A stretch of DNA of 41,355 nt from Actinomycetota bacterium (GTDB taxonomy: Bacteria; Actinomycetota; Acidimicrobiia; IMCC26256; PALSA-610). Positions within the stretch are counted from its first letter, which is position 1, and each line of letters starts with the position of its first letter. The notes below the pieces were generated by a model. The model had not been told where the DNA came from. It worked only from the letters and a program-made list of their open reading frames with translations, and searched no databases. The DNA is taken from positions 1 to 41,355 of the forward strand of contig SXIR01000017.1 of the NCBI GenBank assembly GCA_005772765.1, written 5' to 3'. Shown in pieces: positions 15,757 to 41,355 of the stretch. The position numbers and the translations under genes were made by a program.

Positions 15757-16986
15757 GACCCGGTCGAGTTCGAGCATGCGAATGGCGTTGCCGCGCAAGA
15801 CCTTGTAGAGCTGTTCGTCGGTGAGGCGGTCTCGGAACTTCTCGATGAACGGGATCGTGTCGGGCCAGCTCGTATCGGTGTGCGGATAATCGGTCTCGAA
15901 ACAGACGTTGTCCTCGCCGACCGCATCGATGTTGCGCAGCCCGATGTCGTCGCTCGTGAAACACCCGAAGATCCGGCCGTAGTAGTAGCTCGACGGCGGT
16001 TCGGGGATGCGCGCTTTCGCCTTGATCCAGCTGTCGTGCTGCTCCCAGATCGTGTCGGCCCGCTCGAGCGCGTAGGGAATCCACCCGATCTGGCCTTCGC
16101 TGTACGCGAGCTTGAGCTTGGGATACCGCACGAGCACACCGCTGTACAGCCAGTCGGCGAGACTCGCCATCGAGTTGTTGAACTGCAAGACGCCGGCGAC
16201 ACCCGGAGGCGCGTCGGGCGACGCGATCGGCATCTTCGATGACGAGCCGATGTGCATGTTCAGCACGACACCGAGGTCGTTGCAGGCCGCGAACAAGCGA
16301 TCCCAGTGGCCCGAGTGAATACTCGGATACCCGAGATGTGTGGGGATCTCGCTGAAGCAGATCGCGTGCACACCACGTGCGGCGATGCGTTCGACCTCGC
16401 GCACGCACAAGCCGACATCCCACATGGGTATCAAACACAACGGGATGTTGACGCCGTCGGAGTCACCGCACCACTCGTCGATCATCCAGTTGTTGTATGC
16501 CTCGATGCACGCGAGCCCGAGTTCCTTGTCGCTCGCTTCGTGGAACGTCTGTCCGCAGAATCGAGGAAACGTCGGGAACGGCAACGAACCGTCGACCCCT
16601 GCGATCGCGAGGTCCTTGGCGCGTTCCTTCGGGTCGTAACAGCCGGGGCGCAGCTCGTCGTAGGTCACGGCCGTCATCTGCATCACCGACCGGTCGAACT
16701 TGGTGACGTCCCCGCCCGGGGTTGCTTCGAGTGGGATCGCAACGAACCGCTTGTGGACGTAGATGATCCGATCCTCGAACACCCAGAAGTCGCCCGGCTG
16801 GCCGCCCGCAACCTGTTGCTGGTCGTAGATCGCGCCCGGATTCAACCGAAAGTCGCCCCATTCGCCACGCTCGACTCGTGGCCCCTTCTCGCGGTGCTTC
16901 TCCGGCAACCAGGTCTGCCAGACGTGCGGTGGTTCGACGACGTGGTCGTCGACGCTGATGATCTTCGGAAGCTCGCTGGCAGCCAT
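15754..16986 (-). CDS. amidohydrolase family 2 (ACMSD-like TIM-barrel metallohydrolase)
   Basis: A 410-residue metal-dependent hydrolase or decarboxylase of the Amidohydro_2 family. Metal-ligand candidates are visible: SVDDHVVEP at residues 11-19 (DxH), the His in LNMHIGSSS, and FETDYPHTD near the C-terminus. Relatives act on aromatic-ring cleavage products or other carboxylated substrates; the substrate here is not evident. The gene appears leaderless: TACGCT (16993-16998) stands six bases before the ATG. A perfect palindrome directly upstream (17000-17015) indicates repression by a dimeric regulator, probably TetR-like. No such regulator is encoded in the window. Confidence 0.85.
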   Translation of the reverse strand: MAASELPKIISVDDHVVEPPHVWQTWLPEKHREKGPRVERGEWGDFRLNPGAIYDQQQVAGGQPGDFWVFEDRIIYVHKRFVAIPLEATPGGDVTKFDRSVMQMTAVTYDELRPGCYDPKERAKDLAIAGVDGSLPFPTFPRFCGQTFHEASDKELGLACIEAYNNWMIDEWCGDSDGVNIPLCLIPMWDVGLCVREVERIAARGVHAICFSEIPTHLGYPSIHSGHWDRLFAACNDLGVVLNMHIGSSSKMPIASPDAPPGVAGVLQFNNSMASLADWLYSGVLVRYPKLKLAYSEGQIGWIPYALERADTIWEQHDSWIKAKARIPEPPSSYYYGRIFGCFTSDDIGLRNIDAVGEDNVCFETDYPHTDTSWPDTIPFIEKFRDRLTDEQLYKVLRGNAIRMLELDRV

Positions 16987-33280: not shown

Positions 33281-33558
33281 GATTACCCCCCGGTAGCTTC
33301 GTGAATCGTGTGAGTCTGCGCTCACGAACGGCGCGATGCAAGCATTTCCTCGACGACGTCGAACGGCAGCCTCAATCGATCACGTGCGTGTCCGGACGAA
33401 AGGCGACCCAAGCGAACGAGAACGTGTCGAGATGCTCGATCGGTTGCGCGTCTCGCCGGCCAACGAGCCGTCGACCGCAATGCTGACGGTCCGACTCCAC
33501 CACATGCGCCGAGCCGCAGCCCGCCGACAGTGGCCAGGCCGAGCCCACTGCGTGGAGG
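33281..33558. other. 278-base intergenic region, no convincing gene
   Basis: It lies between the SGNH-hydrolase start and the stop of the selenoprotein gene (both minus strand). Open frames on both strands are Arg-rich and match no family. The inverted repeat GTGAG-TCTGCG-CTCAC lies just upstream of the hydrolase ribosome binding site and might be an operator. I see nothing else. Confidence 0.4.
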
Positions 33559-34206
33559 TCATCCGAGTCCGGCGAGCTCCAGGACTTCGGCCTCGTCGTA
33601 CATCCCGAACCAGCCCTGCAGATTCTCGCCCGTCGGCGACAGCATCGCCGCGGCGGGTTGTGAGCTGACACCGAACGCCCGCCACGTTTCAAAACTCTCG
33701 TCCCACAGCAGAGGGAACGTGATGTCGTGGCGTTCGAGGAAGTCCTGTGCCTCACCGAAGGTGTCTTGCGTACCGATGCCGACGATCTTGACGTCGTTGC
33801 CGTGCTGGCGAGCAAACTGCTCGACCCCCGGGGCTTCCCGGTTGCACGTGCTTCAATGCGGCGCCCAGAACCACAACAGGACCGGGCGGTCGGCGGGAAT
33901 CAGGCTCGCGAAGTTCACCGTCTCGCCCGTCGCGACATCGAGGACGTCGACCGCGGGCAACGGGCTGGTGACCGCGACCGTGGTCGGCGGGGGAACGGTC
34001 GAGTCGGACGTCGTTGCCGCCGACGTTTCGCTCGGAGCGACCGAGGTCGTCACGGACGTGGCTGGCGTCGTCGTCTCGGCGGCGTCCGTGGGGCGCAGCG
34101 ACGGTCCGGCGCTGCCGGAGTCCGAATCGTCGCCACCGCAACTGGCGCCGACAATTGCGACCGCGCTCAATGCGGACAGCATCTGGATTCGAAGGGATGA
34201 CCTCAC
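33559..34206 (-). CDS. TlpA/ResA-like thioredoxin lipoprotein with in-frame TGA (selenocysteine) in the active site
   Basis: Read through one TGA, this frame gives a 215-residue lipoprotein: lipobox ending at Cys23 (IVGASC), a Ser/Thr linker (about 25-82), then a complete thioredoxin fold. The active site is WFWAPH-U118-STC121, so TGA (33853-33855) occupies the first cysteine of CxxC. The fold continues without error through VKIVGIGTQD, ITFPLLWDES, the cis-Pro loop GVSSQPAAAM and LSPTGENLQGWFG, to TGA at 33559. A conventional reading stops at 117 residues, just before the redox centre. Start GTG 34206 overlaps the CcdA stop (GTGA). It would act as a thiol-disulfide reductase outside the membrane, reduced by CcdA. 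A SECIS-like hairpin lies downstream of the TGA. Confidence 0.85.
33807..33826 (-). promoter_or_regulatory. candidate bacterial SECIS element
   Basis: In the mRNA, 26 bases after the UGA, GG-U-CGAGC pairs with GCUCG-CC, leaving one U bulged five pairs below a five-base loop AGUUU. This copies the E. coli fdhF layout (a bulged U below a short stem whose loop contains GU). It lies farther from the UGA than in fdhF. A plausible alternative hairpin, CCGGG-AAGC-CCCGG (33828-33841), is closer but lacks the bulge and the loop GU. Confidence 0.65.
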
Positions 34207-35081
34207 GGAGCGGGAACCCCTTCAGCAGCATTCTCCTTCCCGATTTCTGCTCCGCGTGTCGTACGCCGACGCCAGCTGGAAGTCCAGATCACGGCACTGA
34301 CTGCCACCAGGAAACCGGCGAGCGCGACTGCCGGCTCGACCTCGGACAATCGACGGGTCAGCCACTCCTGGATGTTCGCGGCGCTGTCGATGATCGGGTC
34401 TTGGTCGAAATCCCCCCGGACGTCCCAAAACCCGTACCACGTCACATAGGCGCCGGCGATGACCAGCATCAGACCCGACACCCGATTGACGATCGGCGCC
34501 GATCGGCGCAGCCGAGCGATCAGCCCGCGTCGGGCACCGCCGACCGCGACCGTCACGATCGTGATCACACTGCCCATCCCCAGCGAGTACGCGACAAACG
34601 ACACGAACCCGGCGGCGACACCCTCGGACCGAAACGTTGGCGTCAGCGCGACCAGGAACGGGCCAAGCGTGCACGACAGCGACGCGGTGGCATACGACAC
34701 GCCAAACCAGAACATCGACCAGAAACCGCGCTCGCGTCCGCCTCGCTCGACTTTCGGCGCTCGAATGCGTAGCTCTCGACCGGCAAGCAGCCACGCACCA
34801 ATGAGCACGAGGCCGATCCCGATGACGATCGTTGCCTTCGCGAGATGTTGATCGATGCTCGATGCCACGGTCTGGACCAGCAGGCCGACCAACCCGAATA
34901 CCACGAGGAAACCGCTGGTCATGGCCGCGCTGACGAACAAGGCTCGACCGCGCGCGGGAGCGGTGTCGCCATCGCTGCCGACGAAGAAACCGAGATAGGC
35001 GGGCAGCATCGCGAATCCACACGGATTCACCGACGCGACCATTCCCGCGGTGAAGGCAAGGCCAATCGGCACGTCGAACAT
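34203..35081 (-). CDS. CcdA-type thiol-disulfide transporter
   Basis: A 292-residue membrane protein of the CcdA/DsbD-beta family that moves reducing power across the membrane. The redox pair is Cys21 in SVNPCGFAMLPAYL and Cys137 in ATASLSCTLGPFL. Six membrane segments fit the family; an extra C-terminal hydrophobic segment (about 250-267) precedes a basic tail. It is translationally coupled to the selenocysteine-type TlpA lipoprotein downstream, its expected partner. An upstream TTGAAACCCG on the minus strand (35145-35154) may be an ECF-sigma promoter element. Confidence 0.9.
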   Translation of the reverse strand: MFDVPIGLAFTAGMVASVNPCGFAMLPAYLGFFVGSDGDTAPARGRALFVSAAMTSGFLVVFGLVGLLVQTVASSIDQHLAKATIVIGIGLVLIGAWLLAGRELRIRAPKVERGGRERGFWSMFWFGVSYATASLSCTLGPFLVALTPTFRSEGVAAGFVSFVAYSLGMGSVITIVTVAVGGARRGLIARLRRSAPIVNRVSGLMLVIAGAYVTWYGFWDVRGDFDQDPIIDSAANIQEWLTRRLSEVEPAVALAGFLVAVSAVIWTSSWRRRTTRGAEIGKENAAEGVPAP

Positions 35082-36129: not shown

Positions 36130-37389
36130 CTAGGACACGCGAGCGATTGCGGTGAACGAGCAGTAGTAGAGGTCGCGATCGAACCCGGCCGCCGGAAACA
36201 GCACCGATTGCACGGGACTCCCGCTCGCGACTCGCGCTCGCTCGTCACCGGTCTCGACGTCGAGGAGAACGATGTCGTCGGCGAAGCGGACTGGGTCGTG
36301 ATCGGCGGTGACGAGGTCACCCGAATCGCCGAACAACAGTGGGTGACAGGCGTGGTTCTGGTCGCGACGCCATCGCAGGCGAAGCGATCCATCGAGCGCG
36401 ACGTCGAACGCTGCGATCACACCGTTGCCGCTGTCGTAGCCAACCGCGATCCGTCGGACTTCATCGATGATCGGTGGGTTCGCCACGACCCCGCCGGGCA
36501 AGCCGCAGATTTCGGTGAGCGAGACTGCCTGCGTCTCGAGGTCGACTCGCACGAGATGGAGCGGCACCAGGTTGACGCCCTGATTTCGGAACGTCCCGGC
36601 GTACCGTTCGCTGCCGAAACCGTTGTCGAGGAACCACACCGCACCAAGCGCGATGACGGGGTCCCAACCGTAGGTCTGCCCCGCGATCGTGCAGTAACGC
36701 GCCGTGAACGATTCGTCGATCGTGAGCGCCGTGCCGTCCCACTGCAATCGCCAGAGTGATTCGACACCGACGAGGTAGACGTCGTCATCGACCGACGACA
36801 GGCGGGCGATCGAAGCTTCCGGAACAGAACATCGAGCGACGATGGCCAACGAATCGGGTTCGAGCACCAGCATCTCGGTGGGTTCGTATGCGTGCGTCGC
36901 TGGATCGTGTCCGGGTAGCACCCCGCCGAAGTCCTTCGTGACCAGATGCCCGTCGGGCAGGATGACGAAGCTGTTGTAGGGCTTGACGCGCGGCAAGCGG
37001 GTCTTGGCGATGACCTCGAGGGTCGCGGCCGACAACCGGTGTGCATGGTTGCCGAACACGGTGTACAGATCGCCGTTGGCGTGCACTGCGACTCCGCCCG
37101 GCCAGACCGGGCCGGCTTCGAGATCGTCGGATCGTGCCTGCGTCTCGAGGGTGACTGCGTCGATCCGTTCGACCCACCCGATCGCGCCCGGTCCCGCGGT
37201 GTGGCGCAGCGCGAAGACCTCACCGGGTTCGCGCAACACCACCATTGTCGTCGCCATGGCCTCTCGATGGACCACCGTCACGCCTTCGTCGAACTGCGGA
37301 CCACCCACGGTCGTCGCCCGTCGCGTCGGGCCGTTGTCCTCGCCGGGCCACGGACTCGACCAATATCCAGCGCGGGCGTCTGTGGTCAT
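36130..37389 (-). CDS. beta-propeller-like protein of a sulfatase operon, unknown function
   Basis: A 419-residue protein with repeated short blades such as WPGGVAVHANGDLYTVFGNHAHRLS, YNSFVILPDGHLVTKDFGG and LPGGVVANPPIIDEVRRIAVGYDSGNG, resembling SMP-30/quinoprotein-type propellers. No signal peptide is visible, so it is probably cytoplasmic. I do not recognise a characterised family. The ATG at 37389 overlaps the sulfatase stop (ATGA); a long Arg-rich upstream extension was rejected. It is the last gene of the operon and may process or bind a desulfated product. Confidence 0.75.
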   Translation of the reverse strand: MTTDARAGYWSSPWPGEDNGPTRRATTVGGPQFDEGVTVVHREAMATTMVVLREPGEVFALRHTAGPGAIGWVERIDAVTLETQARSDDLEAGPVWPGGVAVHANGDLYTVFGNHAHRLSAATLEVIAKTRLPRVKPYNSFVILPDGHLVTKDFGGVLPGHDPATHAYEPTEMLVLEPDSLAIVARCSVPEASIARLSSVDDDVYLVGVESLWRLQWDGTALTIDESFTARYCTIAGQTYGWDPVIALGAVWFLDNGFGSERYAGTFRNQGVNLVPLHLVRVDLETQAVSLTEICGLPGGVVANPPIIDEVRRIAVGYDSGNGVIAAFDVALDGSLRLRWRRDQNHACHPLLFGDSGDLVTADHDPVRFADDIVLLDVETGDERARVASGSPVQSVLFPAAGFDRDLYYCSFTAIARVS

Positions 37390-38927
37390 ACCGGAGCCTC
37401 GACCTGCAACCGCGGCCGATGCGGTTCGGGCTGACGATCCCACAGTTCGGCGACGAGGTCGCTGCGAAGCGCCGCATACCCAGGGTCGTCCCAGAGGTTG
37501 CGGTGTTGCAGCGGATCGGACGCGAGGTCGTACAGCTCGCCTTCGCTGCCGTCGTGTACGTGGCCCGGTTTGTACACGGTGCACACGAAGTCCCCGTGGG
37601 TGATGGTGCGGAGATAGACCCCGACGCCGAACAGTTCGCTGTCCCATTCGGTGAGCGTGACACCGAAGCCGCGGCTCGACGCATCACTGTCGTCGACGGG
37701 CAACGCTTTGCCTTGCATCCACTCGCACGGCACCTGGCCGGCAATCGTCGTGAATGTGGGAGCGAGGTCGACCAGCCCCACGGGCGCGGTCACAACCGAG
37801 GGGGCGATGCCTGCGCTCGGAGCCGGCCGCCAGATCAAGGGCAGACGCATCAATGCGTCGACGTGATATGGGCCTTTGAACAACAACCCGAAATCGCCTT
37901 GGAACTCGCCGTGGTCGGTGGTGAAGATGACGTCGACATCGTCGGCCCAACCTCGCCGCTCGACCTCGACCAGGACACGGCCCAACGCCTCGTCGATGAG
38001 CTCACACTCGATCGCGTTGCGCGCGTTGATCTCGCGCACTTGATCGTCGGTCAATGTCGCAGGCACCCAGTGACGCGGCGCTTCGAAGTTCGAAACCAGC
38101 GTGCCGTCGTACCACTGGCGCCAATGGCGCGGCTTCGCGTCGAGGATCGCTTCACGTTGCGACCGATCGGTCGGGTATCCCTCTGGCAACGGCACGTCGC
38201 GCCAATCGATGCGACCGAGTTCGGATTCAGGCGGATCCCACGGATGGTGGGGGTCAGGAAAGCTCAACCAGCAGAACCAGTCATCGGTCGCATCGAGGGT
38301 GCCGAGCCATTCGATTGCCCGATCCGCGAGCCAGTCGGTGTGATACCACTCGCGCGGAATCGGATTCGTCTTGACCTGCGGCGCGTCGGTATCGCCACCG
38401 CCGATGGCGTTGACGTTCATGTCCCCGTCCACGACCGGATAGAACATGCCGATCGCCTCCGGGTGATGGTTCAGCACCCAGATCGCGTAGTGCAGCATGC
38501 CGTTCGCGCCATGGGTTGCGAGCTCGAGGTGGTCGAAGCCTCGATGTCCGTTCGCTGCGTTCGTGCCGGCGCGGCCGAGTTGGTTCTCGGTGAACCGTCC
38601 GAACGGATCCATGAAGGGTTCGAAGTGCGCCTTGCCGATGAGCGAGGTCTTGTAGCCAGCGTCGCGCAGTGCTGCCGCCACCGAAGGCGCGTCCACGGGA
38701 AGGGGAACGCCGTTCATCCACACGCCGTGCGTCGTGGGATGTTGGCCTGTGATGATCGTGCTCCGCGACGGCATGCAGACGACGGACTGCGGCACGGCTC
38801 GCTCGTAGCGGATGCCATCGGCGGCGAGGCGGTCGATCACCGGCGTGCGCGCGAGCTTCCCGCCGTTACATCCCAAGGTGTCATATCGCTGCTGGTCGGT
38901 CGTGACGAACAAGATCTTGCGGCCCAT
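37386..38927 (-). CDS. type I sulfatase (arylsulfatase A family)
   Basis: A 513-residue alkaline-phosphatase-superfamily enzyme. The formylglycine motif is VVCMPSRSTIITG with Cys51 (CxPSR). Metal ligands start at FVTTDQQRYDTLGCNG and return at IFTTDHGEFQG. It hydrolyses sulfate esters after conversion of Cys51 by a formylglycine-generating enzyme, not present in the window. No signal peptide is seen, so the substrate is probably imported or cytoplasmic. Neighbours are a second sulfatase and an SRPBCC protein on the same strand. Confidence 0.92.
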   Translation of the reverse strand: MGRKILFVTTDQQRYDTLGCNGGKLARTPVIDRLAADGIRYERAVPQSVVCMPSRSTIITGQHPTTHGVWMNGVPLPVDAPSVAAALRDAGYKTSLIGKAHFEPFMDPFGRFTENQLGRAGTNAANGHRGFDHLELATHGANGMLHYAIWVLNHHPEAIGMFYPVVDGDMNVNAIGGGDTDAPQVKTNPIPREWYHTDWLADRAIEWLGTLDATDDWFCWLSFPDPHHPWDPPESELGRIDWRDVPLPEGYPTDRSQREAILDAKPRHWRQWYDGTLVSNFEAPRHWVPATLTDDQVREINARNAIECELIDEALGRVLVEVERRGWADDVDVIFTTDHGEFQGDFGLLFKGPYHVDALMRLPLIWRPAPSAGIAPSVVTAPVGLVDLAPTFTTIAGQVPCEWMQGKALPVDDSDASSRGFGVTLTEWDSELFGVGVYLRTITHGDFVCTVYKPGHVHDGSEGELYDLASDPLQHRNLWDDPGYAALRSDLVAELWDRQPEPHRPRLQVEAPV

Positions 38928-39341: not shown

Positions 39342-41355
39342 CTACTGGCGCGCGTTCTCGGCGCGTTCGGCCGCGGCTGCGTTCGTCGGCGCTTCGGTGC
39401 TTTGCACCGACACGAGTTGGATGTCGACCCGGTGCACCGTGCCCGCAAATGGGAAGGGATCGTGATAGCGCGAACTCACGGGCGACCCGTGGTCGTAGCC
39501 AATGCTCGGGCCGATGGACGAGATGATGTTCATCACGAACGGGACGTCGAGGTGTCCGCAGACGTCGCGGTCGATCGTCAGGTCGGCAAATCCGTCGCGG
39601 CCCGTACGTCGGAACTGGACCCCGACGACCGACGCGCCCACGGGTACCGTCCGCTCGGATTCGACGACATGGTGCACGCCGAACTCGTTGTAATCGAGCA
39701 CGAGGCGATCGTTCTGGATGAACAAGCTGATGCCCGAACTCGCCGTACCCGTCGCGTAGAGCACACCGCCGTCTCCGGCGGCGCGTTCGATGCGTACCTC
39801 CATGTCCCAGCTCCGTCCACCGATACTCGGGCCTACCTGCGCCGGCATCGGACTAATGGGCGGTATGTAGGTGTAGTGACGTGACGGCAGGTGCGGGCTT
39901 CGTTCGCGAAAGCGCGCGCCGAATAACGCGATCGTGCGCTCGTCGAGCGGGAGTACGCCGTGCGCCTCCGCCTCGCGCCACCACAGATCGATCATCTCCG
40001 CGAGCTTGTCGGGCATCTCCGCCGCGAGGTCGCGACACTCCGAACGATCGACCGCGACGTGGTAGAGCTCCCACGGATCGTCGTCGAACGGAACTCCGGG
40101 GACATGACGGGTGACGGCTTTCCACCCGTCGGCGTAGATGCCACGGTGCCCCATCATCTCGAAGTACTGCACGGTCTTGTCCGACGGATGGTCGGGGGCG
40201 GCATCGAACGTCGCCAACATCGACGTGCCCGTGACTGGGATCTGCTCGTAACCACGGTAGGTCTCGGGCGCGTCGACACCAATCGCTTCGTAGATCGTTG
40301 GCGCGATGTCGTTGACATGATGGAACTGGTGTCGGAGTCCTCCGTGATCGGCGATGCGAGCGGGCCAGTGCACGACGCAGGGCACGTGCACCCCACCTTC
40401 GTGCGTGTTCTGCTTGTACCACTTGAAGGGCGTGTTGCCGACTTGCGACCAACCCCACGGATAGTTCGTGTGCGAGTTGGGGCCACCGATGTCGTCGAGC
40501 CGCGCCACTGCCTCGTCGGCGTCTTCGAGAATGAAGTTGAAGAACTTCCACTCGTTGAGCACACCGAACGGGCCGCCTTCTTGGCTTGCGCCGTTGTCGG
40601 AGAGCAACACGATGATCGTGTTGTCGAGCTCGCCGAGACGTTCGAGGCCGGCAACGAACCGGCCGATCTGGGCGTCGGTGTGGTCGAGGAACGCCGCGAA
40701 CGCTTCTTGGAGCCGCGCCGCGAGCTTGCGTTGGTTCTCCGAGAGCGAGTCCCACGCTTCGACCCCCGGGTTGCGCGGCGCGAGTTCGGTGTCGGGCGGA
40801 ATGACGCCGAGTTCCTTCTGGCGGGCGAACCACTCCTCGCGAGTCGCGTCCCAGCCTTGGTCGAACTTGCCGCGATACTTCGCGAGGTACTCGGGTGGAG
40901 CCTGGTGCGGCGCGTGCGTCGCACCGAACGCGAGGTACGTGAAGAACGGCTTGTCCGGACGAATCGACTTGGTGTCGTGCACCATGCGGAGCGCTTGGTC
41001 GACGAGGTCGTTCGACAAGTGGTAGTCCGGGCCCGCCGGCGGGTCGACATGGTGGTTGTCGATCACCAACTCGGGGTGGAACTGGTCGGTCTCGCCGTCG
41101 AGGAACCCGTAGAAGCGGTCGAATCCCCGTTGGCAGGGCCAATGGTCGAAGGGGCCCGCAGCCGACGCATGCTCCATCGGGCACAGATGCCACTTCCCCA
41201 CTGCGAACGTCGCGTACCCCGAATCGCGGAGCACCTCCCCCATCGTCGCCGCGTGATGCGAGATCCGCCCGCGCATGTGGGGGAATCCCGTGTTGAAGTT
41301 CGACACCGAGCGCATGCCTACTTCGTGGTGATTGCGGCCGGTGAGGAGCGCCGCC
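39342..41355 (-). CDS. arylsulfatase, 5' end beyond the window
   Basis: A partial gene of 671 visible residues running off the right edge. The visible N-terminus reads AALLTGRNHHEVGMRSVSNF, which in relatives directly follows the CxPTR formylglycine motif, so the catalytic cysteine lies just outside. Visible features are GKWHLCPMEHASAAGPFDHWP, the metal site IVLLSDNGASQEGGPFG, and TPFKWYKQNTHEGGVHVPCVVHWP. The last 150 residues form an extra beta-rich C-terminal domain found in large arylsulfatases. It is the first visible gene of the four-gene minus-strand operon. Confidence 0.92.
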   Translation of the reverse strand, partial: AALLTGRNHHEVGMRSVSNFNTGFPHMRGRISHHAATMGEVLRDSGYATFAVGKWHLCPMEHASAAGPFDHWPCQRGFDRFYGFLDGETDQFHPELVIDNHHVDPPAGPDYHLSNDLVDQALRMVHDTKSIRPDKPFFTYLAFGATHAPHQAPPEYLAKYRGKFDQGWDATREEWFARQKELGVIPPDTELAPRNPGVEAWDSLSENQRKLAARLQEAFAAFLDHTDAQIGRFVAGLERLGELDNTIIVLLSDNGASQEGGPFGVLNEWKFFNFILEDADEAVARLDDIGGPNSHTNYPWGWSQVGNTPFKWYKQNTHEGGVHVPCVVHWPARIADHGGLRHQFHHVNDIAPTIYEAIGVDAPETYRGYEQIPVTGTSMLATFDAAPDHPSDKTVQYFEMMGHRGIYADGWKAVTRHVPGVPFDDDPWELYHVAVDRSECRDLAAEMPDKLAEMIDLWWREAEAHGVLPLDERTIALFGARFRERSPHLPSRHYTYIPPISPMPAQVGPSIGGRSWDMEVRIERAAGDGGVLYATGTASSGISLFIQNDRLVLDYNEFGVHHVVESERTVPVGASVVGVQFRRTGRDGFADLTIDRDVCGHLDVPFVMNIISSIGPSIGYDHGSPVSSRYHDPFPFAGTVHRVDIQLVSVQSTEAPTNAAAAERAENARQ

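Follow-up and report, generated by a model that had tools for sequence, protein, structure and literature searches.

The gene at 33559..34206 of the window, by which we mean the whole stretch of 41,355 nucleotides analysed here, is in all likelihood a functional selenoprotein gene, with UGA118 standing where a thioredoxin fold of the TlpA/DsbF type has its nucleophilic Cys. It is read on the minus strand, from a GTG start at 34206 to a terminal TGA at 33559; the plus-strand reading of 33559-34206 is meaningless as coding sequence and was rejected. The relevant features are:

33559..34206, minus strand: putative selenoprotein gene of the tlpA/dsbF type, starting with GTG, 215 aa, Sec at residue 118
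33853..33855, minus strand: TGA within the frame at codon 118, the presumed Sec that opens the UxxC motif
33828..33841, minus strand: hairpin CCGGG-AAGC-CCCGG resembling a SECIS, its apical loop 16 nt past the TGA
34138..34206, minus strand: putative signal peptide with lipobox VGAS-C23 (V19-C23), a loose PS51257-like pattern
34203..35081, minus strand: ccdA/DsbD-type transmembrane protein gene, 292 aa, its stop overlapping the tlpA start as GTGA

An earlier note on this DNA had placed a TGA exactly at the first Cys of a CxxC motif (WAPH-U-STC) in an otherwise intact fold, and both points hold. With TGA translated as U, the sole internal TGA is codon 118, in the context LLWFWAPH-U-STCNREAP, and is followed by 97 residues before the terminal stop. 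The read-through product scores above the Pfam cut-offs for AhpC-TSA (3e-14), Redoxin, Thioredoxin_8 and Thioredoxin, and its AlphaFold model contains a block of pLDDT 92-99 spanning residues 81-210, in which helix 119-135 begins straight after residue 118. Residue 118, either Sec or Cys, and C121, the inferred resolving Cys of the UxxC motif, are invariant in the family alignment, and the cis-Pro, P184 (SQPA), is at least 90% conserved. Export and anchoring may be signalled by the loose lipobox pattern VGAS-C23. Under the standard code the open reading frame comprises 117 aa (33853..34206, minus strand), precisely the product anticipated from gene callers, which thereby cut off the protein of the Sec gene and lose its active site. 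A 256-aa antisense open reading frame on the plus strand (33530-34300) covers the same gene and may mislead gene callers. Further along the window, two sulfatase-family genes lie near the selenoprotein gene, at 37386-38927 and 39342-41315 on the minus strand.

The role most likely to be filled by the encoded protein, as judged from its sequence, is that of an extracytoplasmic thiol-disulfide reductase with a reactivity raised by selenium. SelB and Sec-tRNA(Sec)(UCA) would decode UGA118 as Sec, and the resulting TlpA-like protein would be lipid-anchored outside the cytoplasmic membrane, where Sec118 may attack substrate disulfides, to be resolved by Cys121. The overlapping CcdA would then send electrons across the membrane, regenerating the Sec protein. 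The GTGA coupling to ccdA proposed in the earlier note is real, and the ccdA product matches Pfam DsbD_TM; CcdA is the probable electron-exchange partner. A ccdA gene is found nearby in three Sec relatives (L002, L003 and L004) as well as in three Cys relatives (L062, L063 and L066), and the pairing is thus independent of Sec.

It is because of CcdA that a reductase is preferred. A selenoprotein acting as an extracytoplasmic, DsbE/DsbF-like oxidase rather than as a CcdA-driven reductase is possible, if less likely, since the M. tuberculosis proteins DsbE and DsbF oxidise substrates in vitro. DsbF (3ios) and DsbE/MPT53 (1lu4) are the top match to the window protein by sequence and by fold, being the first PDB folds recovered by Foldseek with the AlphaFold model, followed by ResA. 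They are actinobacterial extracytoplasmic Dsb proteins, as the window protein is predicted to be, however with CxxC in place of UxxC. CcdA/DsbD proteins normally carry electrons outward, which together with the GTGA translational overlap with ccdA speaks against an oxidase, and Sec chemistry would also favour nucleophilic reduction. As to the M. tuberculosis proteins themselves, both folded hirudin oxidatively and failed to reduce insulin in vitro, and Rv2877c or DsbD has been proposed as their membrane partner (PMC3853704).

Returning to the reductase assignment, its selenium chemistry depends on UGA118 being decoded as Sec, and the home genome, a draft MAG of 3.6 Mb in 233 contigs and 80% complete, was searched for the sel genes as the earlier note had advised. 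A tRNA-Sec (selC) with anticodon TCA is present at G000:C139:286-375, above the RF01852 cut-off and confirmed by ARAGORN; RF01852 matches weakly in every genome, to other long tRNAs, and we therefore counted just this own match. The window itself gave zero matches in the Rfam search and zero tRNA genes with ARAGORN. The selD gene lies at G000:C218:11544-12467 (L076) and is predicted to encode a selenoprotein too, with an in-frame TGA in the active-site motif SHGAG-U-ACK. The 3' end of selB is found at the end of contig C81, which breaks inside the gene, whereas selA and most of selB were not found in the 80%-complete draft. C81 is colinear with the same-genus genome G001 up to the break, and immediately past that point G001 has the remainder of selB as well as selA. 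An assembly gap is therefore the best explanation for the missing selA. The search thus succeeded for selC, selD and the selB end and failed for selA; the lack of all sel genes in a complete genome, which the earlier note held would speak against a selenoprotein, is not what we encountered, considering that these genes are present and that the contig break sits beside the syntenic selA spot.

Selenium use appears widespread in the class of the home genome, to judge by selA, which is present in 103 of 148 relatives. A listed TGA-bearing match occurs in 37 relatives, all 37 of which are selA-positive, and in none of the 45 selA-negative ones, among the matches listed (Fisher p about 2e-7 across the 148 relatives, kinship ignored). 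These 37 are counted from listed TGA-bearing matches, the TGA column having been checked one by one in the retrieved loci only. Decoding of the UGA as another amino acid, such as Trp, or Cys delivered by a tRNA that reads UGA, would be compatible with the Cys homologues, which show Cys to be functional at the site. It is nevertheless very improbable given the predicted tRNA-Sec with anticodon TCA in the home genome and the presence of selA in all relatives for which a TGA-bearing match is listed. A general reassignment of UGA is further opposed by the gene's own terminal stop, which is TGA, and by a search of the entire 41 kb window for further coding frames bridged by TGA, which yielded one unconvincing plus-strand candidate, at 16316.

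Decoding as Sec is likewise congruent with the family at large. The homologue search covered 149 genomes, the home genome and 148 relatives, the named ones being Actinomycetota and mostly Acidimicrobiales, in agreement with the actinobacterial host guessed from the sequence beforehand. Homologues are present in 124 of the 149 genomes, among the matches listed, and the majority of the best carry a single internal TGA; 11 further loci came from a scan of named genomes. Across 39 distinct family sequences, the window's own counted, the first-Cys column holds TGA in 29 and Cys in 10, and every aligned family member, at 21 to 62% identity to the window protein, has nothing but Sec or Cys at residue 118, the outcome expected for a selenoprotein in the alignment that the earlier note had suggested. 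Carriers of the TGA include G059 and G079, each a single contig, and also Ilumatobacter nonamiensis YM16-303. That a Cys-type TlpA gene of the usual sort had suffered a nonsense mutation, or a miscall of TGC or TGT as TGA, is a reading to which the Cys in this column of ten homologues and the draft state of the home MAG lend some colour, but it is untenable and has next to no probability, because the TGA column is conserved across divergent homologues, being found in 28 other sequences from independent assemblies, and because the listed TGA-bearing matches are confined to selA-positive relatives. The earlier argument that the TGA is no random nonsense mutation is therefore upheld.

The home genome contains a second TlpA-like paralogue (L082, G000:C3:3647-4300, minus strand), also with a TGA at the first active-site position (WTPW-U-PICNSEAP). 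In a divergent TGA-bearing clade (L018, L024, L025, L027 and L029) the motif reads FWAEW-U-xxC and not WAPH-U-xxC. On the family tree about 7 changes of Sec/Cys label are counted (bootstrap 5-7), and well-supported branches make at least 4 of these unavoidable; we therefore conclude that Sec and Cys have been exchanged repeatedly. Judging from these sequences, a selenocysteine active site is common to many related actinobacteria with selenium machinery.

A further line of evidence is the hairpin behind the TGA. The bSECIS model demands a loop 16-37 nt after the UGA, a G within the first two loop positions and an MFE of at most -7.5 kcal/mol (PMC13188914). The hairpin of the window agrees with it in distance (16 nt) and in local MFE (-10.4 kcal/mol), and departs from it in the loop AAGC, where the G is third. 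Using synonymous recodings of the same peptides as control, the Sec genes reached a mean z-score of -1.71 (n=29), with 14 of 29 at or below 5%, whereas the Cys rows, two of which represent the same contig, averaged +0.22 (n=11), with 0 of 11 at or below 5% (Mann-Whitney p about 1e-4, phylogeny ignored). About half of the Sec genes are individually no better than the synonymous control, and one clade includes several Sec genes whose hairpin at the expected spot is weak or absent. As a group, the predicted Sec genes thus carry a hairpin just past the TGA, and the Cys homologues do not. Aggregated, the TGA/Cys column, the tRNA-Sec, selD and the selB 3' end support the probable selenoprotein put forward in the earlier note.

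That thioredoxin-like selenoproteins are known in bacteria, as the same note stated, is readily confirmed: a 2026 catalogue lists in its Table 1 a UxxC 'Thiol-disulfide isomerase-like protein' (cd02966), a UxxC 'Redoxin family protein' (PF08534) and a UxxC 'Prx-like thiol:disulfide oxidoreductase' (PF00578) (PMC13188914), and the catalogued TlpA-like (cd02966)/Redoxin UxxC selenoproteins were first found in marine metagenomes (PMC1088965, PMC2398784). For this reason the description of the gene as a notable case has to be tempered, TlpA-family UxxC selenoproteins being already catalogued (PMC13188914), while its status as a probable selenoprotein stands. In the literature on such selenoproteins, of which our coverage is incomplete, we found no description of a lipoprotein, ccdA-coupled, Acidimicrobiia branch. 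The chances appear evenly balanced that extracytoplasmic DsbF/TlpA-like selenoproteins have undergone a large and so far undescribed expansion in the class of the home genome, frequently with two or more in one genome, some coupled to CcdA, and with repeated Sec/Cys exchange. If so, these actinobacteria would rely on selenium routinely in the thiol redox of their cell envelope. With its roughly 7 Sec/Cys changes, the family lends itself naturally to comparisons that address what Sec is good for in a disulfide pathway outside the cytoplasm.

Among characterized proteins, ResA and StoA of Bacillus are extracytoplasmic TlpA-like thiol-disulfide oxidoreductases; they share the fold of the window protein (TM-score about 0.8, by target length) at approximately 20% identity in the structural alignment, and differ in having a Cys active site. 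The ResA model NF002854 scores the window protein at 46.8, below its cut-off of 170. NF041054 (ResA-like WAxxUGC motif-containing protein) combines a ResA-like fold with a Sec active site, as is predicted here, yet its motif is UGC rather than UxxC, and the window protein obtains 26.9 against a cut-off of 300. Not one NCBIfam model exceeds its cut-off for the window protein, and a Sec-aware model would therefore mend the annotation in many genomes. The closest parallel by fold type and motif, the only grounds on which they were compared, is provided by the catalogued UxxC selenoproteins, with the same redoxin/TlpA thioredoxin-like fold and a Sec-first UxxC. On the strength of its sequence, the window protein thus joins the already known TlpA-like UxxC selenoproteins as a real and well-supported member.
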